A DNA stretch of 37,079 nucleotides from a virus, in the IMG/VR virus record IMGVR_UViG_3300000239_000011, positions 1-37,079 of that record; one strand, given 5' to 3'. The notes under the pieces are model-generated. The model ran no database searches and was not told the DNA's origin. It saw only the letters and a program-made list of their open reading frames with translations. This document shows, in pieces, positions 4,519-37,079 of this stretch (positions are counted from its first letter, which is position 1; every line of letters begins with the position of its first letter). Position numbers and translations under genes: made by a program.

Positions 4519-4959
4519 ATGAAATTAAAAGTAAATGATTGCCTAAAATACTGGAGAGTAATTCGCTACTTTATTAAATCTAAGCACGGTTTGAATACTG
4601 CTGACCTAGACATGCTCCTATTCCTATACAGCGAAGATATATTTTCTAAAGAAAAGTTTGATGAGTTTGACAACCTACTATCCTGGAATGAAGACAGGTT
4701 TAACCGACTGCTTCGTGATGGATGGATAGAAGTGTTTAGAAAAGAACCTAAAAAATTCAAAACTCTATATGACCTCTCGTATAAATCACAAAGAGTTATC
4801 AGTTCTATTTATAAAAAATTATCCGGGGAAGAAATACCCGCTGATAAAAATAACCGCATGTTTGCAAAGAATGTAAAGTACTCAGACCAAGTTTATCGAA
4901 ACATGATAATAGAGATGAACAAACTTAGACGACAACAACAACGTCTTTCTCCTGAATAA
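4519..4959 (+). CDS. Winged-helix (MarR-like) DNA-binding protein
   Basis: This 146-residue protein starts MKLKVNDCLKYWRVIRYFIK and has the order helix, LNTADLDMLLFLYSE, FDNLLSWNEDRFNRLLRDGW, IEVFRKEPKKFKTLYDLSYK. That is the layout of a winged helix: a helix-turn-helix followed by a two-stranded wing and a further helix region. It resembles MarR-type proteins I recall from marine phage genomes. It is the only plus-strand gene among minus-strand late genes. It diverges from the gene at 4253-4480 across 38 bases, and its last 35 bases overlap the 3' end of groES in antisense. A local transcription regulator of late or chaperonin genes is plausible. The fold call is from sequence pattern. Confidence 0.7.
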   Translation: MKLKVNDCLKYWRVIRYFIKSKHGLNTADLDMLLFLYSEDIFSKEKFDEFDNLLSWNEDRFNRLLRDGWIEVFRKEPKKFKTLYDLSYKSQRVISSIYKKLSGEEIPADKNNRMFAKNVKYSDQVYRNMIIEMNKLRRQQQRLSPE

Positions 4960-5182
4960 TTGTAAACACATCATCGTTTATAATCATAGAGTAACCAGCG
5001 CGTTTGTCATAAAAGATTAAGTCTCCTTCTTTTAAAACACCTACCTCAGTACCGCTTTTTATTATAACTCCTTTTTTGTATCTTAGTTGATTGGCGTCTT
5101 CTGAACTAAGCAGTAGACCGGAAGCTGTTTTAATTTCTTCCTCAATTGTTTTTATAATTATATTTTTTCCTATTGGTTCCAT
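4925..5182 (-). CDS. groES: GroES-type co-chaperonin
   Basis: The 85-residue protein begins MEPIGKNIIIKTIEEEIKTA and shows the GroES pattern. An N-terminal beta strand with a PIG..IIIK core is followed by a mobile loop with the hydrophobic GLLL segment (about residues 22-25, equivalent to the GIVL of bacterial GroES). Then come KKGVIIKSG, VGVLKEGDLIFYDKRAG and a C-terminal INDDVFTIIQEKDVVVV. It is slightly shorter than the usual 95 residues. It would cap the GroEL ring to form the folding chamber in the host cytoplasm. GroEL lies about 0.7 kb upstream in the same direction with four small genes between, an unusual separation. Its 3' end overlaps the convergent regulator gene. Confidence 0.93.
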   Translation of the reverse strand: MEPIGKNIIIKTIEEEIKTASGLLLSSEDANQLRYKKGVIIKSGTEVGVLKEGDLIFYDKRAGYSMIINDDVFTIIQEKDVVVVV

Positions 5183-5710: not shown

Positions 5711-5917
5711 TTATTTATTAAAGTCGTTTTTTCTTAGCATAGCTCCAAATATTATTTTTTTTACTGCAAGATAAACATGGTTTGCGGAACTTACACTAAT
5801 TTTTTTCTGCACAAACAAATCAGTTGAAATCTTATCAGCTATTTTATCTGCTTCTCTTTCTTCTAAATAATTATCTAATAACATATTATTTATTTTTTCT
5901 TTTGTTATATATTTCAT
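5711..5917 (-). CDS. Hypothetical helical protein, 68 aa, coupled to groEL
   Basis: The product starts MKYITKEKINNMLLDNYLEE and is predicted mostly helical, with alternating charged and hydrophobic residues and a basic C-terminus (AMLRKNDFNK). Its ATG overlaps the TGA of groEL by four bases (5914-5917), so translation is probably coupled to groEL. I do not recognise it. A chaperonin accessory role is conceivable only from position. Confidence 0.62.
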   Translation of the reverse strand: MKYITKEKINNMLLDNYLEEREADKIADKISTDLFVQKKISVSSANHVYLAVKKIIFGAMLRKNDFNK

Positions 5918-7521
5918 TTCGCCTCATAAGTTCTTGCCATAGTTACTATGGCGTTAGTAGAAAGTATGGTCACCGCTACCGACACTGCATTTTGAAGCGC
6001 CTGCTTGGTAACTTTCAGTGGGTCTATTATCCCCATCTCAATTAAATCTCCCTCTATACCTGTCTTAACATCAAGCCCTATGTTCTTTTCGTTATATACT
6101 CTATCGTTTTCTATCCCTGCGTTCTCTTGAATTTGTTTTAAAGGCTCAAACAGTGCTTGTGATAAAATCGCCATAGCGATTTTTTTATTTGAATTTTTAT
6201 TAGAGATATACTCATCTTGCAATAACAACCCTTCTTGATACAAAGCGAGTCCTGCTCCAGGGAGTATGCCCTGCTCAAGAGCACTACGGACTGCGCATAC
6301 TGCATCGTCAACCCTATCGAAAAGTTCTTTCTGTTCAAGGTCCGTGTTTCCTCCCACATATATAACACCAACACCTCCTGTTAATGACGCTATTCGAGAG
6401 AGGATAAACTCTTTGTCTACCTTCTTCACTGTTATGGAATGAGCATCCCAGAGTTGGGCAACCCTCTCATCGATTAGCTCCACGTTCACATGGGTATCGT
6501 CTTTAAGTATTATACTTGAGTCTTTACTTATGATTATTTTCTTTGCACGACCCAGGTCTTCAAACTTCATTATGCTCATATCATCACCTGTCTGTTGTGA
6601 AAAATAAGTAGCCCCTACTGACAGAGCTATGTCCTGCATCAGTTCATGTTGCTTATAGCCAAAGGAGGGTGGAATTATGGCGCAAAGCTTCAAGCTGTTC
6701 TTCATGACATTCGCCGCTAGGGTGTTTATCACGTTTTGTGAACAAGGTGCTACTATAAGTAATTTTTTTCCTTCGTTGATTATTGGTTTTAGTATGTTCT
6801 CAATAACCAGTATGTTGTTAATCTCGGCATCAGATACTAGAATATGCACATCCTCCATAACGCACTCATCTTTTTTGTGGTTGTTTATAAACAGCGGTGA
6901 GGAATATCCTCTGTCTATTTTTAAACCATTGGTCGTCTCGAAGCTGGTCTCAGCTCCCTGGGCTTTCTCCACAGTTACTATCCCATTTTTTCCTACCGCC
7001 AAATATGTTTTGGCTATTATCTCTCCTGTTGTGGTATCATTATTGGAAGATATAGTGGCTACATCTAGCAGTTTTTTATCCGAGACTTTACGTGCTCGTT
7101 TCTTTAAGTTCTTCACAACCCCCTCTGTTAATGAGACCATATCCCGAAGGACTTGTGTTTTATTATCTGTATGCTCCAGCTCATCTATCCCTCTTCTAAC
7201 TAAGGACTCCGTTAGCACGATAGCCGTAGTGGTCCCATCCCCTGCATTAGCAGCAGTTCGAGACGCAGCTTCACGCAGCATCTGCACCGCTAAGTTCTCA
7301 ACCGGGTCAATAAGTTGAATAGATTTCGCAACGGTCACCCCATCTTTAGTCACGGTAATTCCGTGCGTGTGACTTGGTGATTCTATAAGAACCGTATTTC
7401 CCATAGGCCCAAGTGTAGACTTGACAGCCGCTGACATTTTTGATATACCTTTTATTAATTTTGACCTAGCATCTTCTCCAAAGTGCAAGTCTCTTGGTGA
7501 GTACCCTCCAGTAGTTTCCAT
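5914..7521 (-). CDS. groEL: GroEL-type chaperonin (Hsp60)
   Basis: The 535-residue protein matches group I chaperonins end to end. Visible landmarks are FGEDARSKLIKGISKMSAAV, the ATP-binding TLGPMG (36-41), TKDGVTVA (58-65), GDGTTT (94-99) with its catalytic aspartate, and a DRVDDAVCAVRSALEQGIL segment near residue 400 that carries the second ATPase aspartate. The C-terminus ends TMARTYEAK and lacks the Gly-Gly-Met tail of bacterial GroEL, which probably enlarges or alters the chamber floor. With the phage groES it would fold phage proteins such as the very large virion proteins here. Phage-encoded GroEL and GroES are known from marine viruses and Pseudomonas phage EL. A promoter and an octamer repeat cluster lie just upstream. 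Confidence 0.95.
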   Translation of the reverse strand: METTGGYSPRDLHFGEDARSKLIKGISKMSAAVKSTLGPMGNTVLIESPSHTHGITVTKDGVTVAKSIQLIDPVENLAVQMLREAASRTAANAGDGTTTAIVLTESLVRRGIDELEHTDNKTQVLRDMVSLTEGVVKNLKKRARKVSDKKLLDVATISSNNDTTTGEIIAKTYLAVGKNGIVTVEKAQGAETSFETTNGLKIDRGYSSPLFINNHKKDECVMEDVHILVSDAEINNILVIENILKPIINEGKKLLIVAPCSQNVINTLAANVMKNSLKLCAIIPPSFGYKQHELMQDIALSVGATYFSQQTGDDMSIMKFEDLGRAKKIIISKDSSIILKDDTHVNVELIDERVAQLWDAHSITVKKVDKEFILSRIASLTGGVGVIYVGGNTDLEQKELFDRVDDAVCAVRSALEQGILPGAGLALYQEGLLLQDEYISNKNSNKKIAMAILSQALFEPLKQIQENAGIENDRVYNEKNIGLDVKTGIEGDLIEMGIIDPLKVTKQALQNAVSVAVTILSTNAIVTMARTYEAK

Positions 7522-11368: not shown

Positions 11369-12472
11369 ATGTGTGTAATACTTATTAAACAAAGTGATAA
11401 GCAATTATCAAAAACTATTCTGAGGACATCCTCAAAAATAAATCCCCACGGATTGGGGATTGTGTGGCTCGACACTTACGAGACAACCTATCACAAATCT
11501 TCCGCTTGGAAGACACTTGTAACAGACAGACCTTTCATCGCTCATTTCAGATATGCAACCAAAGGTATAGTTAACAAGGCCAACACCCATCCTTTTATAT
11601 GTGGTAAAAATACAGATGAATTACTGATGCACAATGGAACCATACCTAATATAGGTGCGGATGCTAAGTCAGATTCAAGGATGCTTGCTGAGTATCTTGG
11701 AGATATGCCAAGGCACTCTTGGGCTGAGGAATTAGCTGAGTATGATTCAAGATTTGTTACCATCAACACAAGGACTAGAACCTTTCAGATTTACAACAAA
11801 GAACTTTGGACTAAGCAAGCCGATGTATGGTACAGCAAAGACAATGTAATAAAGAACAGCCTTGTAGCTGTGTATGGTACACTTAAGAAAGGGAACAACA
11901 ACTACTATCATTACCTTAGAAACGAAACCTTTGTAGGCAAAGGTACAACGACTATGAAGTATCCGATGATTGTGCCAGGACTACCTTATGTAATAGACAA
12001 GCCAGGCAAGGGTCATCATATTGATATCGATTTGTTTGCGGTCAGCAATACAGCAATGAAGTCACTCGATATGCTTGAGGGACATCCAACTCATTACAAG
12101 AGAAGAGAGATAACAGTACTCGTCAAAGGCAAGGTCTATAAGGCTTGGCTATACTTTGGACAGAACCAAGAGTACAAAGGCAAGCAATTACATAGCACTT
12201 ATGAGAAACAGTATCCTAAGTTTACCCTAAGAGGTAACTCCAATTATACTGATTGGTCTAAGCCAACCTACACTCCACCTTGGAGATTGGAAATGGAAAC
12301 AGAGAGTGTCGAGCACGACACTCCTTGTTTTGAAAAAACCTATGACAACTCAACACACTATTGCCCCGATTGTGGGCAAGCGACAGAGGTAGACCCGTAC
12401 TCTTTGGAGTGGTGGTGTCACTCGTGTCAGAAGTTTGAGACAGAGGAAGTAATGAATCAATTTAAATTTTAA
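11369..12472 (+). CDS. Fusion: class II glutamine amidotransferase, GGCT and zinc ribbon
   Basis: This 367-residue protein has three domains. Residues 1-155 are a class II (Ntn) glutamine amidotransferase: catalytic Cys2 in MCVILIK, NPHGLG (25-30), AHFRYATKG (58-66), THPF (73-76), MHNGTI (87-92) and SDSR (101-104). Residues 165-275 are a gamma-glutamylcyclotransferase (AIG2-like): VYGTLKKG (168-175) and LEGHPTHYKRREI (236-248) with the catalytic Glu237. The C-terminus is a zinc ribbon (Cys332, Cys335, Cys350, Cys353). The first domain would release ammonia or cleave an amide; the second would release gamma-glutamyl groups as 5-oxoproline. Amidoligase_2 genes are known to neighbour each domain type, so the gene at 9221 is a likely partner. 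It has its own promoter at 11284. The domains are clear; the pathway is inferred. Confidence 0.88.
   Translation: MCVILIKQSDKQLSKTILRTSSKINPHGLGIVWLDTYETTYHKSSAWKTLVTDRPFIAHFRYATKGIVNKANTHPFICGKNTDELLMHNGTIPNIGADAKSDSRMLAEYLGDMPRHSWAEELAEYDSRFVTINTRTRTFQIYNKELWTKQADVWYSKDNVIKNSLVAVYGTLKKGNNNYYHYLRNETFVGKGTTTMKYPMIVPGLPYVIDKPGKGHHIDIDLFAVSNTAMKSLDMLEGHPTHYKRREITVLVKGKVYKAWLYFGQNQEYKGKQLHSTYEKQYPKFTLRGNSNYTDWSKPTYTPPWRLEMETESVEHDTPCFEKTYDNSTHYCPDCGQATEVDPYSLEWWCHSCQKFETEEVMNQFKF
12306..12321. repeat. In-gene palindrome GTGTCG-AGCA-CGACAC
   Basis: An exact copy of the dispersed palindrome lies inside the GATase-GGCT gene, read as codons for Ser-Val-Glu-His-Asp-Thr in the linker before the zinc ribbon. 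The stem extends by two pairs (GA...TC). Confidence 0.8.
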
Positions 12473-31448: not shown

Positions 31449-31856
31449 TTATATTTTTTTAATTAATTCTGTTGTTTGACTTCCTTTTATAAAACCTAAA
31501 TTTAAAAACTTATTTATTAAATTTTGATTGTTATTATTGGAAAACAAATACTCAACGCCCAGTTCTTCACAATACGCTATTAAAGTTTCTAATAAATAAT
31601 TCAAAGCTTCGTCTCTATTTTCTTTTATATTTCTGTCAGAAACAATCCATTCAACCCAAGCTACATCTGCATTACTTGCAAAATAAATAAACCCTGCGCA
31701 TACAGGCTTGTCTTCCAACGTTACCATCAAACCGCCTTTGCCATTATCAGGTAAAAATTTTTTTTGTGGAGCTTCTTTCCAACTCCAATCTTTCCACCAC
31801 CCTACTAATATGTCTTCATAATCAGATTCATTTAATTCTCTAATACTCAAATTCAT
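31449..31856 (-). CDS. GNAT-family acetyltransferase
   Basis: The 135-residue protein starts MNLSIRELNESDYEDILVGW, the RELNESDY-type start of many GNAT enzymes. It continues with GGLMVTLEDKPVCAGFIYFA, WVEWIVSDRNIKENRDEALN and a C-terminal LNLGFIKGSQTTELIKKI, where an N...F...GF closing motif is recognisable. It would move an acetyl group from acetyl-CoA to an amine. Small GNATs are frequent next to virion genes in marine phages, though their targets are unknown. A TATCTTTG element on the minus strand at 31864-31871 ends 7 bases before the ATG, so a nearly leaderless transcript is possible. Confidence 0.76.
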   Translation of the reverse strand: MNLSIRELNESDYEDILVGWWKDWSWKEAPQKKFLPDNGKGGLMVTLEDKPVCAGFIYFASNADVAWVEWIVSDRNIKENRDEALNYLLETLIAYCEELGVEYLFSNNNNQNLINKFLNLGFIKGSQTTELIKKI

Positions 31857-31877: not shown

Positions 31878-33455
31878 TTAAGGATAACTTTTCATTACAT
31901 CACTCTCTATGGCAAATAGTTCAGTAGCTGTAGTGTTTGTGTTTACTAATGAGAAATTAAGAAGATGTCCTAACATTCCATGAGTTTCTGCTTCCATGTT
32001 TTTAATATATAAAATATAGGGGTCAGCTACACTGATAGGTTGAGCTCCAGATATCTGAGTATTAACAAATAACCTGTTTATTCCACTGGCTAGATTTACT
32101 TCTATATTAGTTATTTGGCCAGCAAATTTTATTGTAGTGTAAGCAGGTTCAGAAAAATACAAATAATCTCCAATACTTACGATACTACCTATGTCTATTA
32201 AAGGATTGGTAGAAAAATTAATAGTTAACACATTGCTTTGGCTAGACCAGCTCGCTGCTTTTCCTATACCATTTGCGGAACGTAAAGCAAGTGTATCTGC
32301 TTCCGCAGGTATATAGCCAGTTTTTCTAAGATAAGCAAAATATGCTCCTTCTTTTTTTTCAAACCACGTAGAATCTACAAACCCATTGTTTTGTATATCT
32401 GTTTGTAAATTCACAGACCATGGTGAATCTGATTCTAAGTTAAGTGTTTTGAATAATTTATTTTCCAGTGGATTTTTATTAAATACACTTGTAATTTGTG
32501 AACTAAATTGTTGACCATAATAATTGTTTCTAGTCTCATTAGTGTTATGCTTATATATATTACCACCTTTAAATGAATACAAATAATTATTCATACCCAT
32601 CATGTATTCAGGAATAAAAGAATAAAAAGACGGCCATCCTTTTACCGAATCACTATACGTTAATGTATATTCGGTGGTAACTGGTGATGGAACAGGCGGC
32701 ACTGTACTAGGCGTTGGAGGCGTAGGAGGTGTTGGCGTGGGAGGAGTAGGGGTTGGTGTGCTACATACAGTAGAGTTGTATATTAAATTGTTTTGCCCCC
32801 CCATATAACCATGGTAAAAACACTCATAGCTAATTGTTCCATATCCTCCAATAACTTCTATTGTTACATCTCCCCAGTAGTAAGTATAAACGTTTCCATC
32901 TAATCCAACTTTTGGTCCTACTGCATTAGTTCCAGTGTATGTAATTACATTAGTTAAATTAAAATTTTGAATTGCAATTGGATGTGCAGAGGGAACATTT
33001 TTTAATACATACGTACCTACATTTGTACCGTATGTTCCATAATTACCTCCAAAAACAAACTTGTTACCACCACTAATCGTTTGTATTGTTACTTCGTTTT
33101 CTGCACCCAAACAATAATCAGGACTAGGTGTTGCAGGAGGAGTCGGAGGACTTGGCGGCACCGGCGGCACCGGTGGAACAGGAGGTATTGGGTTTGGACT
33201 TGGGTTATATTCACCACATGCAGTGTCACAGGGTACATCCATTAGTGTCGTGATACCTGAAAGAGAATTTCTTGCAACTGGCTCGCCATTAAAGTTAGTT
33301 GCTTCTGAGTCAATACATGGTATCGCTACTTCGCCCTCTAAAAGAGTTACTCTCTGTACAGTTCCATCACAACAAACAATCGACCATCTACACTCTCCAC
33401 CTTGTGCTCCTATGGGACACGTTAACTCATATTTTAAGCCTTTTGTACACGACAT
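31878..33455 (-). CDS. Proline-rich virion protein with cupredoxin-like domain, 525 aa
   Basis: Three parts are separated by proline-rich linkers. Residues 1-84 form a cysteine-rich head (MSCTKGLKYELTCPIGAQGG, CCDG, DVPCDTACG). Linker 1 (85-113) contains PPVPPVPPVPPSPPTPP. Residues 114-231 resemble a cupredoxin: His158 in AHPIAI and the C-x2-H-x2-M group ECFYHGYMGG (Cys212, His215, Met218), the ligand spacing of amicyanin-type copper proteins. Linker 2 (232-258) contains TPTPPTPTPPTPPTP. The rest looks like a surface beta domain. It is probably an extracellular virion protein. Next upstream are a glycosyltransferase and a prolyl-hydroxylase-like gene. Copper binding is inferred from residues only. 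Confidence 0.72.
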   Translation of the reverse strand: MSCTKGLKYELTCPIGAQGGECRWSIVCCDGTVQRVTLLEGEVAIPCIDSEATNFNGEPVARNSLSGITTLMDVPCDTACGEYNPSPNPIPPVPPVPPVPPSPPTPPATPSPDYCLGAENEVTIQTISGGNKFVFGGNYGTYGTNVGTYVLKNVPSAHPIAIQNFNLTNVITYTGTNAVGPKVGLDGNVYTYYWGDVTIEVIGGYGTISYECFYHGYMGGQNNLIYNSTVCSTPTPTPPTPTPPTPPTPSTVPPVPSPVTTEYTLTYSDSVKGWPSFYSFIPEYMMGMNNYLYSFKGGNIYKHNTNETRNNYYGQQFSSQITSVFNKNPLENKLFKTLNLESDSPWSVNLQTDIQNNGFVDSTWFEKKEGAYFAYLRKTGYIPAEADTLALRSANGIGKAASWSSQSNVLTINFSTNPLIDIGSIVSIGDYLYFSEPAYTTIKFAGQITNIEVNLASGINRLFVNTQISGAQPISVADPYILYIKNMEAETHGMLGHLLNFSLVNTNTTATELFAIESDVMKSYP

Positions 33456-33498
33456 AAATAAATATATTTAAATACAAATTTACAAAAATTTATTGGTG

Positions 33499-34119
33499 TT
33501 AATCAATGAACCCCCATATACCAGTTTGATGATGTTTTGTAAAACAAATACCGTAAGAATTGTTAAATAAATTAGCTGGTAGTATTTCAATATCTTCTTT
33601 GTCTTGTTTAATAAAATCAGATAACGCTATGGGCCCAACAGTTTTTCTAACTATTGTCCCCCTAAGCTCTTCTTCGTAATTAGGATAAGCTCTAACTGCG
33701 TCTAAGTTTTCTATAATATTTTTTCGAGAATATGTAAGGAACCGTCCCCAAAAATCAGAAGGTGGAGATATCATCATACTGTTTTGAACTACTTCATCTC
33801 CAGAAGAAGCACCCATAAGATAAATTTTATTTCTATCTACTTGATGTATAAAAGGAGAGATTAACTCTATATCCATATCGATATAAGCACCTCCTATTTT
33901 TTCTAATATTAAACTACGAACATAGTCTAACTTAAATATCTTATGAAGCATGTCTAATACTTTATAAAACTCTGGGTCATTACATTTAATGAACTCGTCT
34001 ATTTCTTTATCGTTCCAAACTTTTATACAACAATGTGAACGCTTCCAAGAATCAAGACATACATGCCATTTTTGAGACCACTTGGTTTTATCTTCAGGAG
34101 CTAGGAAGTGTAAAATCAT
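33499..34119 (-). CDS. Family 32-type glycosyltransferase with DXD motif
   Basis: The 206-residue protein begins MILHFLAPEDKTKWSQKWHV and carries the core of the DXD sugar-binding glycosyltransferases (GT32-like): KLDYVRSLILEKIGGAYIDM, with DMD at 81-83 as the metal and nucleotide-sugar site, then DIELISPF and an N-containing SMMISPPSDFW section. It would transfer a sugar from a nucleotide-sugar donor. Its start overlaps the tandem oxygenase gene by 26 bases, which implies coupled expression. Both neighbours on the outside are proline-rich virion proteins, so hydroxyproline in those linkers is a possible acceptor; host cell-surface sugars are the alternative. Enzyme class is well supported, the acceptor is not. 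Confidence 0.84.
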   Translation of the reverse strand: MILHFLAPEDKTKWSQKWHVCLDSWKRSHCCIKVWNDKEIDEFIKCNDPEFYKVLDMLHKIFKLDYVRSLILEKIGGAYIDMDIELISPFIHQVDRNKIYLMGASSGDEVVQNSMMISPPSDFWGRFLTYSRKNIIENLDAVRAYPNYEEELRGTIVRKTVGPIALSDFIKQDKEDIEILPANLFNNSYGICFTKHHQTGIWGFID

Positions 34120-35350
34120 TTAACTTGTAATGTATATAAAAGTTTCTAAAATATTTACCGCCAAAAGGTTCTTTGCGTGCGTGTTCACAAAGAGCTGATT
34201 CATACAATATCATATCTCCTGGTTGCGCATAAATTTTATACCACTCTCCATCGTGTCCTTTTATATCTAACGGCCAATCATCTGCATATTTTTTATTTTG
34301 ACAACCACAGGTTAAGTCTTTGTCTACTATAATAATAGATGATATATGATGCGTTTCAATTCTATCTACATGCTCTGTAAGACTTGAACCTTTCTGATAA
34401 GACCTTATGCCATATACATAGCTTGGAGTAATATCTACACCACAAAAATCTCTATGTATTGGTAGTAATTCTTGGTGTAATATTTGTTTCACAGTAGGTA
34501 AGTTATCAAAACTTAACATTGTACTGTCACCAGGAACGTAATGGTCTTTACCATCAAACTCCTCTTTTTCTTCTTTACTTTTTAATAAACTGTAACATTC
34601 TTGAATTAAATTCCACATTTTAGTTGGACATTTCTGTAAAGAAAAACCATTAGGTGTAAGCTTAGGTAGCACACTGTTTTCGTTTAAAAGAACATTGTTA
34701 TTTACTTTAATAATTTTACTTTCATTTTTAGGTTTTTCAACAACAATTGGTTCAATAGGTTTTTTTAATTCTTTATGTTGCTGTTCATCGCCTGCGCCAT
34801 CCCATCCATTTTCTCTCCACCACGATGTAACAATATATTTGTTCCCACTAATAAGTGGTGTGCCTTCATGCAGGGTGTCTGCTAAAACTTCTCCATCTTT
34901 CATGTTTTCCCACCATAACGCTTTACCTTTCTCTGCTTTAACTGATATTTTTTTCTTAGGAAAATTAGTTTCACCACCCTCGAAATCATCATTTAAATAA
35001 ATCATTAACGTGTGAGTTCTATTACCCGAAGCTAAACAGTGCATATCGTAAGCAGGCCCACTAAAATAATCATTGTGGGGTTTAAAATACTCACCTACTT
35101 TATACAATTGCCCTTGTAAAGATTCTCCTTTATGTATAGGTAAACCTAGCAAGTCACTAATTTTTTTATGTACACTTTGTATAATTACGTTGTTAGTGTC
35201 TAAGTTACTTGTACTTGAAGTTCTATGGTCGGTTACATCCGAGCGGTCAGTTCCTCCTACTACTACAGAAGAACGAGTATGATTCGCGTCTATTAATTTT
35301 ATTATTTCATCACACTCTTCGTGAGAAATAAAGTTGGAAATTTCGTGCAT
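34094..35350 (-). CDS. Tandem 2-oxoglutarate/Fe(II) oxygenase, first half prolyl-4-hydroxylase-like
   Basis: Two complete-looking oxygenase domains are fused. Domain 1 (1-185) follows prolyl 4-hydroxylases: FKPHNDYF with His92 and Asp94, LMIYLNDDFEGGETNFP, distal His161 in LHEGTP and Lys171 in GNKYIVTSWWR. Domain 2 (about 230-412) has GSSLTEHVDRIETHH (His327, Asp329), QPGDMILYESALCEHAR (His390) and the arginine of YFRNFYIHYK (Arg402). The linker is lysine and proline-rich. Both iron triads and both 2-oxoglutarate-binding residues are present. The protein would hydroxylate protein side chains, most simply prolines of the flanking proline-rich virion proteins. It has its own candidate promoter at 35371. 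Domain calls are strong, the target is inferred. Confidence 0.86.
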   Translation of the reverse strand: MHEISNFISHEECDEIIKLIDANHTRSSVVVGGTDRSDVTDHRTSSTSNLDTNNVIIQSVHKKISDLLGLPIHKGESLQGQLYKVGEYFKPHNDYFSGPAYDMHCLASGNRTHTLMIYLNDDFEGGETNFPKKKISVKAEKGKALWWENMKDGEVLADTLHEGTPLISGNKYIVTSWWRENGWDGAGDEQQHKELKKPIEPIVVEKPKNESKIIKVNNNVLLNENSVLPKLTPNGFSLQKCPTKMWNLIQECYSLLKSKEEKEEFDGKDHYVPGDSTMLSFDNLPTVKQILHQELLPIHRDFCGVDITPSYVYGIRSYQKGSSLTEHVDRIETHHISSIIIVDKDLTCGCQNKKYADDWPLDIKGHDGEWYKIYAQPGDMILYESALCEHARKEPFGGKYFRNFYIHYKLNDFTLPSS

Positions 35351-35370
35351 TTAATTTGATTTAATTTATA

Positions 35371-35401
35371 TAAAGATATCAAAATTATTGTTGCTGACAA
35401 A
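35371..35401 (-). promoter_or_regulatory. Candidate promoter of the oxygenase-glycosyltransferase pair
   Basis: On the minus strand TTTG (35401-35398), a 19-base spacer and TATCTTTA (35378-35371) fit the Bacteroidota form except for the last base. It lies over the end of the upstream proline-rich gene and 20 bases before the ATG at 35350. This would allow the modification genes to be expressed apart from the virion genes. Confidence 0.58.
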
Positions 35402-37079
35402 CTTGACATGAGCCAAAATAATTTCCAAACCATTGCCTTGAATAACTTCCATCAGACACAAAAGTAGCTGCTGCTAAACTTCCACAGCTATCGTTTGTTC
35501 TATAAAATGCTGTAGCTTGACAAAGTGTAGATGCGTCAAAATACATTGTTTCTGAACGAGACGCATTACAAGCTGCTAATGCTGTTGACCCCGTTGACAC
35601 GGCATTTATAGCAAAACAAGTTGGTGTAGGGGGAGAAGGTGGAGAGGGTGGTGGTGGAGAAGGCACCGTGGCTTCACACGTAGCACAGTCTGCATAGTCA
35701 TCAAAGTTTGAATAGTCTTGCCCTGTTGCTCCAGCTAACTGTATGTATTGATAACAAACACCTGATATTTTAAGAACTGTTGGGAAAGAAGTTCCGAAAG
35801 CTCCACTTACCGTAGCTTGTATATCACTTCCTCCTGTAGCACAGTCACCATATTGAGCATAAACAATAGCAGGTGTTGGAGGACTAGGTGGGACTGGAGG
35901 AGGAGCAAACCCACCACATGAACTTTCAATTGCTACCACTGTTACTGATGTGTTATAGAAAGTAGCAGCATTATCCGTTATTTCCCAAAATTTTGTACCA
36001 TCCATTACCGGAGTTCCTCCTGGACCTGATGGGCCATTTAATCTTAATGCTGTTCCTACCGATAAAGTTGGAGATGTTAACCCTGTTACTCTTACATAGT
36101 ATGGTGTTCCAGATGTATAACATTCTACAATCTTAACATCCTGAGTAGCCGTAGCAGGTGAAGGCGCTGGTGGGCTAGGTGGTGGGGGTGATGGAACCGC
36201 TGGTGGACATCCCGTGTCTGTTCCAACTGCTTGTAGATTTTGACAAGCTAGATTTTGGTCGGAAGTTATACCTGCGTTACCACTATAATAAAAGAAATCA
36301 GGATTACTTCCAGACGTACCATCAACATATCTTTGACTTAGAGTTGGTTGAGTAGCACTTTGAAGGTAACATCCTGGTGGTGCAGTACCGTCAGCTCTTG
36401 TACATCCTATTAAAAAATAAAATAAAGATGGTGGTACTGGTGGCACTGGTGGCACTGGTGGTACTGGCGGTGCCGCACACGCGGTACAATCATTAAAACT
36501 TGATAGCCCAGCTATATCTATTGTAGACGTGAGCTCTGTAGGTCCAAAATTATACCAACACACCCCGTTAAAACTTACAGTAGCAGGGAAAGTTCCTCCT
36601 GCAAGAACTCTAAATCTTAATTTGGATACTCCTCCTGTAATACAATCTGCATATTCTCTATAATCATAGCTACACAGAAGACAGCTTGCGTAACTTGGCA
36701 GAGTGGCAGCGTTTATTGTTGACGTTAATCCTGTTGCTTGTGGGTTTTCCCAACACATATTATTATATCTTATAAATCCTGGGAAAGTAACTCCGCTTTC
36801 AACTCTAAACACTTGAGTTGCTGTAGCGTTACATTGAGTATAAACTCTGTAATCATAAGTAGGCGCGTTACACGCGGTACAATCATTAAAACTATCTAAA
36901 CCTGTAATATCTTGCGTAGATGTTGTGCTTGTTGAACTTGTACTTTCATAACAAACACTATTAAAATCTAAAACATTTGGAAAAGTTTCACCCGAAGGAA
37001 CTCTAAATATTTGCGTATTTGTTCCCCCACACTCTGTGTATAATTGAAAATCATAAGCGGCAGGTGTTGGCGGGTCTGG
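35385..37079 (-). CDS. Cysteine-repeat, proline-rich virion protein, cut by right edge
   Basis: The frame is open to the window end, so the N-terminus is missing; 564 residues are visible. The first part has three tandem repeats of about 65-75 residues. The pattern is a Y-C pair, FRV..G.TFP, a FN..C or YN..C motif, TST.DI..L and a closing C..C, for example SFNDCTACNAP. Next come PPVPPVPPVPPVPPS, a cysteine domain, VPSPPPPSPPAPSP, a domain with a YYVRVTGL strand, PPPVPPSPPTP, another repeat-like unit, and VPSPPPPSPPSPPTP. The C-terminal domain ends FVSDGSYSRQWFGNYFGSCQ, a fibre-end style. SPPPP blocks are the hallmark of plant and algal extensin-like glycoproteins. Probably a disulphide-stabilised surface appendage. 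Confidence 0.74.
   Translation of the reverse strand, partial: PDPPTPAAYDFQLYTECGGTNTQIFRVPSGETFPNVLDFNSVCYESTSSTSTTSTQDITGLDSFNDCTACNAPTYDYRVYTQCNATATQVFRVESGVTFPGFIRYNNMCWENPQATGLTSTINAATLPSYASCLLCSYDYREYADCITGGVSKLRFRVLAGGTFPATVSFNGVCWYNFGPTELTSTIDIAGLSSFNDCTACAAPPVPPVPPVPPVPPSLFYFLIGCTRADGTAPPGCYLQSATQPTLSQRYVDGTSGSNPDFFYYSGNAGITSDQNLACQNLQAVGTDTGCPPAVPSPPPPSPPAPSPATATQDVKIVECYTSGTPYYVRVTGLTSPTLSVGTALRLNGPSGPGGTPVMDGTKFWEITDNAATFYNTSVTVVAIESSCGGFAPPPVPPSPPTPAIVYAQYGDCATGGSDIQATVSGAFGTSFPTVLKISGVCYQYIQLAGATGQDYSNFDDYADCATCEATVPSPPPPSPPSPPTPTCFAINAVSTGSTALAACNASRSETMYFDASTLCQATAFYRTNDSCGSLAAATFVSDGSYSRQWFGNYFGSCQVCQQQ

Follow-up and report, generated by a model that had tools for sequence, protein, structure and literature searches.

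A block of four genes at positions 31878–37079 of a fragment from a marine phage is read here, with moderate confidence, as a tail-protein modification cassette in which proline-rich linkers would be hydroxylated and glycosylated. The fragment (IMG/VR record IMGVR_UViG_3300000239_000011; 37,079 nt, the whole of which is called the window below) encodes, in minus-strand order, a large proline-rich protein, a tandem 2-oxoglutarate (2OG)/Fe(II) oxygenase, a glycosyltransferase and a muzzle-type protein with proline linkers; conserved tail genes come next. This order recurs in dozens of other contigs and the block is therefore not a product of chance. Within the window, only the two flanking tail proteins reach at least 30% proline in any 30 residues. 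The end of the oxygenase gene and the start of the glycosyltransferase gene overlap by 26 bases (34094–34119). The four genes are:

35385–37079, minus strand: C-terminal part of the large proline-rich tail protein (open reading frame (ORF) of 564 residues, open at the window edge)
34094–35350, minus strand: tandem 2OG/Fe(II) oxygenase (418 residues)
33499–34119, minus strand: GT32/Och1-like glycosyltransferase (206 residues)
31878–33455, minus strand: muzzle-type tail protein with a proline-linked N-terminal extension (525 residues)

The genes, their coordinates, the overlap, residues H92, D94, H161 and K171 of the oxygenase, the DMD motif of the glycosyltransferase and the linker motifs PPVPPVPP, SPPPP and TPPTPP had been given in an original prediction from this DNA, and all were confirmed on the sequence. 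The upstream proline-rich ORF was also present, although it proved to be the last quarter of a 2,246-residue protein and not a whole protein. The observation thus holds, and its interpretation is partly supported, resting on comparative sequence evidence across phages and not on the gene order of one genome.

Co-occurrence of proline-rich linkers and modifying enzymes

Loci were gathered by eight scans of viral contigs with oxygenase, muzzle and PF11397-type glycosyltransferase queries. A locus was classed as Pro-rich when the maximum proline content in a 30-residue window reached a threshold of 30%, and enzymes were assigned by profiles. Dereplication at 95% and a minimum of 3.5 kb of upstream sequence gave 120 muzzle-type loci. 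Seventy-four of these were Pro-rich, and none of the 74 lacked an enzyme: 54 carried the tandem oxygenase, 5 its domain 2 only and 15 a PF11397-type glycosyltransferase without oxygenase. Among the 46 loci that were not Pro-rich, 44 had neither oxygenase nor PF11397 enzyme. The other two, L345 and L390, are fragments: their proline-rich gene falls outside the stretch counted or, in L390, probably past the contig edge. Across the 120 loci the association between proline-richness and enzymes gave a Fisher p of 8e-31, a value not corrected for kinship. Moreover, when the 70 dereplicated tandem-oxygenase loci with context were considered, 64 adjoined a Pro-rich protein and 65 had a sugar-transfer enzyme (GT32, PF11397, O-FucT or related) within 6 kb.

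The combination is also found in other phage lineages. In four loci (L318, L323, L338 and L383) the tandem oxygenase follows a protein with PVPVAPTP or PQPQPTPQP repeats directly downstream of the tape-measure gene, and in the T4-like contig L303 it occurs with an (SPTP)n protein adjoining a T4-like tail-fibre gene, an arrangement repeated in L349. These proline-rich partners are non-homologous to the muzzle-type ones. In the oxygenase tree the tape-measure clade is nested within otherwise muzzle-type sequences (support 98), pointing to transfer of the oxygenase into a phage whose tail protein was different but likewise proline-linked. In L302 domain 2 stands alone after a proline-linked mosaic protein, the linkers of which are too short for the threshold. 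The co-occurrence of the four genes, proposed as a check on the original prediction, was therefore found as a strong association that includes unrelated phages, one that fits sugar on hydroxyproline or on Ser/Thr alike.

The sugar genes between the oxygenase and the muzzle gene are GT32-like (as in the window), PF11397, fusions of GT32 and PF11397, or members of two families without a Pfam match. Further genes in the same interval of relatives encode PF10250 O-FucT enzymes together with GDP-mannose dehydratase/epimerase-type enzymes, a carbamoyltransferase, an aminotransferase and a radical SAM protein. Traced on the oxygenase tree, three glycosyltransferase types change 7–15 times each and proline-richness 4 times; in these relatives the sugar enzyme has been exchanged repeatedly while the hydroxylase and the linkers stay.

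Several of the accessory genes recur. A radical SAM/SPASM protein lies between the oxygenase and a PF11397-type glycosyltransferase in L102 (5167–6075), L058, L183 and L353, and perhaps carries out a further peptide or sugar modification. Carbamoyltransferases are found in L100 (4829–6915), L333 (11654–14456) and L326 (6479–9046, fused to O-FucT), which suggests carbamoylated sugars; a small protein with an HRD...H pattern is also recurrent. PF11397, the Pfam family of Gnt1, the Skp1-hydroxyproline N-acetylglucosamine (GlcNAc) transferase, was rejected as a marker by itself, being common in other phages without the oxygenase. Such glycosyltransferases gave at least 590 matches in phages (L216–L293), many in large genomes and with no prolyl 4-hydroxylase (P4H) nearby.

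The tandem oxygenase and the glycosyltransferase

The oxygenase comprises two domains:

34781–35350, minus strand: domain 1 (residues 1–190), prolyl-4-hydroxylase-like, from alignment and comparison with solved P4Hs
34097–34675, minus strand: domain 2 (residues 226–418), second oxygenase, from phrog_2954/3531 and alignments

The protein matches PF13640 in Pfam (E=1e-15) and solved P4Hs in phmmer searches (E down to 4e-31). P4Hs are also the best Foldseek matches of its AlphaFold2 model, which has a mean predicted local distance difference test score of 82 and a predicted template modelling score (pTM) for the whole protein of only 0.50, so that it does not define domain packing. Domain 1 contains the HxD...H iron triad and the 2OG-binding Lys of P4Hs. 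Residues Y83, H92, D94, R111, H161, K171 and W177 are invariant in an alignment of 92 oxygenases, and H92, D94, H161 and K171 likewise in a separate alignment of 24. R111 and W177 align to P4H residues and are presumably the conserved Arg and Trp of the peptide groove. The top Foldseek matches of domain 1 were 5v7y, 5iat, 3itq, 3gze and 5c5t (template modelling score by target about 0.63–0.75), giving a double-stranded beta-helix closest to P4Hs; 5iax, 3itq, the algal 2jig/3gze and the chlorovirus 5c5t were matched by both sequence and model. The algal enzyme 3gze was solved with a (Ser-Pro)5 peptide. Sequence match and predicted structure thus agree with the earlier claim for the first half of the protein, and domain 1 is a predicted P4H-like enzyme.

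Domain 2 gave no Pfam match above cut-off, though it is conserved with an HxD/E...H set: in 92 sequences H327 is present in 91, D329 in 90 (E in 2), H390 and R392 in 92 and R402 in 82. It occurs alone in L100, L183 and L294–L302. PHROGs applies the label 'ferrochelatase' to phrog_2954 and phrog_3531 (window 34097–34675; L457, 5767–6462), whose members carry a 2OG-oxygenase-type HxD...H; judged by these motifs, the label is probably a misnomer. Both domains look catalytically active from their conserved residues, and the invariance of the active sites in 92 homologs shows that the oxygenases are under selection. A scan of genome contigs, representing host genomes, found no relative of the tandem oxygenase. 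The record with the best match to domain 1 among those labelled as phage, MT838812, was discarded since it resembles a bacterial contig (recJ- and integrase-like ORFs).

The glycosyltransferase matches PF04488 in Pfam (E=3.7e-8, 34.4 bits against a cut-off of 23). Its DMD motif is D81-M82-D83, with D81 and D83 invariant in 10 glycosyltransferases. The AlphaFold2 model (pTM 0.87) has a GT-A fold whose best structural match is Och1 (9n3s, E=1.3e-9). As had been proposed, this predicted enzyme belongs to the GT32/Och1-like group.

The flanking tail proteins

The claim that the proline-rich proteins on either side are virion components was borne out by Pfam, PHROGs and annotated homologs, which identify both as tail proteins. 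The muzzle-type gene has these features:

33111–33209 (approximate limits), minus strand: first proline linker of the muzzle-type protein (NPSPNPIPPVPPVPPVPPSPPTPPATPSP), by direct reading
32679–32759 (approximate limits), minus strand: second proline linker of the muzzle-type protein (STPTPTPPTPTPPTPPTPSTVPPVPSPV), by direct reading
31881–32672, minus strand: conserved muzzle C-terminal domain (residues 262–525), a separate short gene in linker-less relatives

Linker-type sequences include PPVPPVPPVPPSPP, SPPPPSPPSPP and TPTPPTPPTPP. The linkers are Pro/Ser/Thr/Val repeats without a glycine period, and so are not of the Gly-X-Y kind.

The large protein is 2,246 residues at full length in contigs L003/L004, which are 100% identical to the window ORF over the overlap. 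Residues 1–1515 have a homolog in linker-less relatives, a virion structural protein (phrog_14478), and to this part a 730-residue proline/cysteine mosaic, consisting of cysteine-containing modules joined by proline linkers, has been added C-terminally. Muzzle ring-joining/beta-propeller domains were not identified in it by domain searches. The muzzle-type protein matches PF25729 (crAss_MUZ_C) over residues 308–378 (E=9.8e-19, 68 bits against a cut-off of 27) as well as phrog_38031, and its homologs in cultured phages are annotated as structural; there was no sequence match to any solved muzzle chain. In the phage collection its nearest homologs come from an uncultured circular phage from Manatee Spring (52% identity), Cellulophaga phages (Pachyviridae) and Flavobacterium Elemovirus, and the gene order around the muzzle-type gene is conserved. 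Judged from these relatives, the host is likely a member of the Bacteroidota.

Elemovirus has the large protein and the muzzle domain in one polypeptide. The muzzle-like protein therefore appears here to have been split, with proline-linked extensions at both new ends. The muzzle C-terminal domain and the conserved order of neighbouring structural genes are shared with the Crassvirales-type muzzle (crAss001 gp44, PMC10172136) and the tail proteins of Pachyviridae and Elemovirus, whereas the Crassvirales-type muzzle is a single polypeptide and here there are two genes with proline-linked mosaic extensions. In crAss001 the tail tip is built by the muzzle, an inserted outer domain of which is believed to touch the cell (PMC10172136); by analogy, the proline-linked extensions would be exposed. 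Both the large protein and the muzzle-type protein are candidate substrates. The muzzle extension is not a necessary one, since in L208 and L156 the muzzle protein is short and the oxygenase occurs with a Pro-rich upstream protein.

Directly after the muzzle gene lies a GNAT-like gene (phrog_17252; 31449–31856, minus strand), a position it keeps in most relatives, whether or not they have the linker cassette. Elsewhere the window encodes GroEL-like (Cpn60, E=3.5e-50; 5914–7521, minus strand) and GroES-like (Cpn10, E=5.5e-12; 4925–5182, minus strand) chaperonins, and a protein combining glutamine amidotransferase-like and gamma-glutamyl cyclotransferase domains (11369–12472).

Proposed mechanism and alternative explanations

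Computation shows which families the enzymes belong to, that their active sites are intact, that the flanking proteins are tail proteins, and how the genes are ordered and co-occur across lineages; a substrate role for the linkers, the sugar-bearing residues and the purpose of the cassette are inferred. The tandem oxygenase, encoded inside the tail gene cluster, would hydroxylate residues in the proline-rich linkers of both neighbouring tail proteins. Domain 1 would most likely make 4-hydroxyproline, and domain 2 may hydroxylate proline at another position or in another context, or act on another residue. The GT32-like enzyme would then add sugar to the linkers, on hydroxyproline or on adjacent Ser/Thr. 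The outcome would be a stiff polyproline stalk, coated with sugar and placed at the tail tip, that could space, protect or retarget receptor-contacting modules.

A number of results weigh against this scheme or against parts of it. The association among muzzle-type loci needs only 3–5 changes on the muzzle tree, which inflates the Fisher p and makes the independent observations far fewer than the counts. Fifteen Pro-rich muzzle-type loci have a glycosyltransferase and no oxygenase, showing that linkers do not require hydroxylation; part of these were found through the PF11397-type query, so their share is a biased estimate. Five muzzle-type loci with oxygenase and linkers have no detected sugar enzyme, and in one of them (L033) glycosyltransferase-like sequence remains that was not called as an ORF. 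Six distant relatives, all fragments (L339, L353, L362, L364, L381 and L402), combine the oxygenase with a sugar enzyme and show no proline-rich protein on the fragment, which in part matches the composition that the original prediction had named as evidence against itself. The pairing of oxygenase with sugar enzyme is therefore wider than the linkers, and in these phages other substrates are likely. A strict one-to-one coupling of P4H and linker was rejected on the basis of these 15 and six loci. Linker composition likewise gave no sign of the oxygenase: the share of prolines without a Ser/Thr neighbour did not differ with and without it (p=0.25), and an effect of the oxygenase on composition was discarded, such prolines being no commoner in oxygenase phages. 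Such prolines were fewer in PF11397-bearing phages (p=8e-5), with a median share in oxygenase loci of 0.11 with PF11397 versus 0.27 without, so the PF11397 enzyme may use Ser/Thr.

The same figures favour an alternative in which sugars sit on linker Ser/Thr in a mucin-like manner, while prolyl hydroxylation separately stiffens the polyproline helix, the two enzymes sharing a substrate protein and not a residue. In PF11397 oxygenase loci almost every linker proline neighbours Ser/Thr, and the loci with only one of the two activities fit such a division, as do the O-FucT-family enzymes of the relatives, which in animals are Ser/Thr O-fucosyltransferases. However, a sugar enzyme adjoins 65 of 70 oxygenase loci, which is simplest if hydroxylation makes or improves the acceptor. 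Moreover, 43% of the prolines in window-type linkers have no Ser/Thr neighbour and the L338 linkers are largely (QP)n. We regard this alternative as unlikely, though deserving of some weight. In the light of the Ser/Thr pattern, the linker-less loci and the loci lacking a sugar enzyme, modification of the linkers is put forward as the moderately probable reading, and hydroxyproline as the acceptor only tentatively. Hydroxyproline O-glycosylation in phage, giving extensin- or mucin-like tail stalks with sugars on hydroxyproline and with interchangeable sugar enzymes through which every phage would have a coat of its own, is accordingly a possibility that we hold short of even confidence.

It is improbable that the oxygenase and glycosyltransferase instead modify a host component, such as EF-Tu or the cell surface, with the tail genes serving as a permissive insertion site. 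Bacterial enzymes that bind EF-Tu or modify it (5v7y, 4iw3) are indeed among the closest solved P4Hs, some single-domain relatives from other phages sit in non-structural regions, and the sugar genes of the cultured Synechococcus phage S-SCSM1 were interpreted by its authors as serving cell-wall modification (PMC9602691). Yet a host target does not account for the lack of these enzymes in linker-less muzzle-type relatives, nor for their presence alongside linkers in unrelated phages. Still less credible, indeed very improbable, is that the linkers serve as ordinary flexible spacers where adhesin modules are swapped, and that the enzymes co-travel by linkage within one phage pool and do not act on them. 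The few transitions among muzzle-type phages would fit this, as would the Pro-rich ORFs at 13 of the 48 other phage loci that have PF11397 but no oxygenase; the selection evident in the invariant active sites and the recurrence of the enzyme–linker combination with non-homologous tail proteins would not.

Relation to known systems

The proposed cassette resembles the hydroxyproline-rich glycoproteins of plants and green algae (extensins and arabinogalactan proteins) in its SPPPP, (SP)n and (TP)n linkers, its homology to the algal P4H and its glycosyltransferase partner. It differs in that the proteins are phage tail proteins, in a bacterial cytoplasm with no secretory pathway, and in the second fused oxygenase domain. 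The plant-type pairing of a P4H with a Pro-rich Ser/Thr/Pro protein is present by co-occurrence only, and in place of the plant hydroxyproline-specific glycosyltransferase families we found GT32-like, PF11397 and PF10250 enzymes and the two families without a Pfam match. The chlorovirus PBCV-1 P4H (5c5t) is also a virus-encoded hydroxylase with viral proteins as its likely or shown substrate, although from a eukaryotic virus. Mimivirus L230 is a collagen hydroxylase-glucosyltransferase that couples hydroxylation to glycosylation on lysine in collagen repeats; it too belongs to a eukaryotic virus, and unlike its substrate the linkers here are not Gly-X-Y. In the Skp1 P4H–Gnt1 pathway of Dictyostelium and Toxoplasma (PMC3515798, PMC11570480), a cytoplasmic P4H is likewise followed by a sugar transferase. 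Cassette relatives carry PF11397 beside the P4H (for example L054, L102 and L333), sometimes with O-FucT and GDP-fucose-type enzymes, whereas the window has GT32 and not PF11397, and a single Skp1 proline is modified as opposed to repetitive linkers. The 2OG-Fe(II) oxygenases of cyanophages and marine viromes (phrog_61, phrog_2954) are of the same superfamily but are mostly single-domain proteins of large myoviruses, in contrast to the tandem fusion inside a tail cluster.

One cultured phage may allow a direct test of linker modification. S-SCSM1 has 24 2OG-Fe(II) oxygenase genes, and the functions of many cyanophage 2OG oxygenases have not been specifically investigated (PMC9602691). Its match to domain 2 (40% over 120 residues) was the sole one among the matches listed from 50,697 phage records. 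The matching gene adjoins an O-FucT, with another 2OG oxygenase and GDP-fucose genes nearby. The VrlC virion protein of this phage contains an (Arg/Gln/Asn-Pro)n repeat of more than 300 bases (MK867354, 28463–28788) and its baseplate spike a shorter (XP)n; by a slightly longer pattern, a long (XP)n run was found in 1 of 7 other phages with P4H-like genes. The virion proteome of S-SCSM1 has been measured by mass spectrometry (PMC9602691).

Our literature search, which did not cover most subscription journals, revealed no phage for which hydroxyproline, or glycosylation dependent on hydroxylation, had been reported. Hydroxylation-coupled glycosylation is already known in eukaryotes and their viruses, and a version on phage tails would be new. 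Genes for P4HA/prolyl 4-hydroxylase are abundant among the auxiliary genes of viruses in the Baltic Sea, where their viral use has been called cryptic (PMC9301287). For viral P4Hs the cassette offers a concrete substrate hypothesis, namely proline-rich proteins of the tail, and its genetic design keeps the hydroxylase and linkers while the sugar enzyme is swapped. Taken together, the co-occurrence of these genes across hundreds of related phages suggests that the tails of some phages are decorated in much the way that cell-wall proteins are in plants. If true, this would be, as far as we have found, the first phage pathway to couple prolyl hydroxylation to glycosylation. It would also add a new level of variation to phage tails and supply a compact set of enzymes with which hydroxyproline-rich glycoproteins could be made in bacteria.

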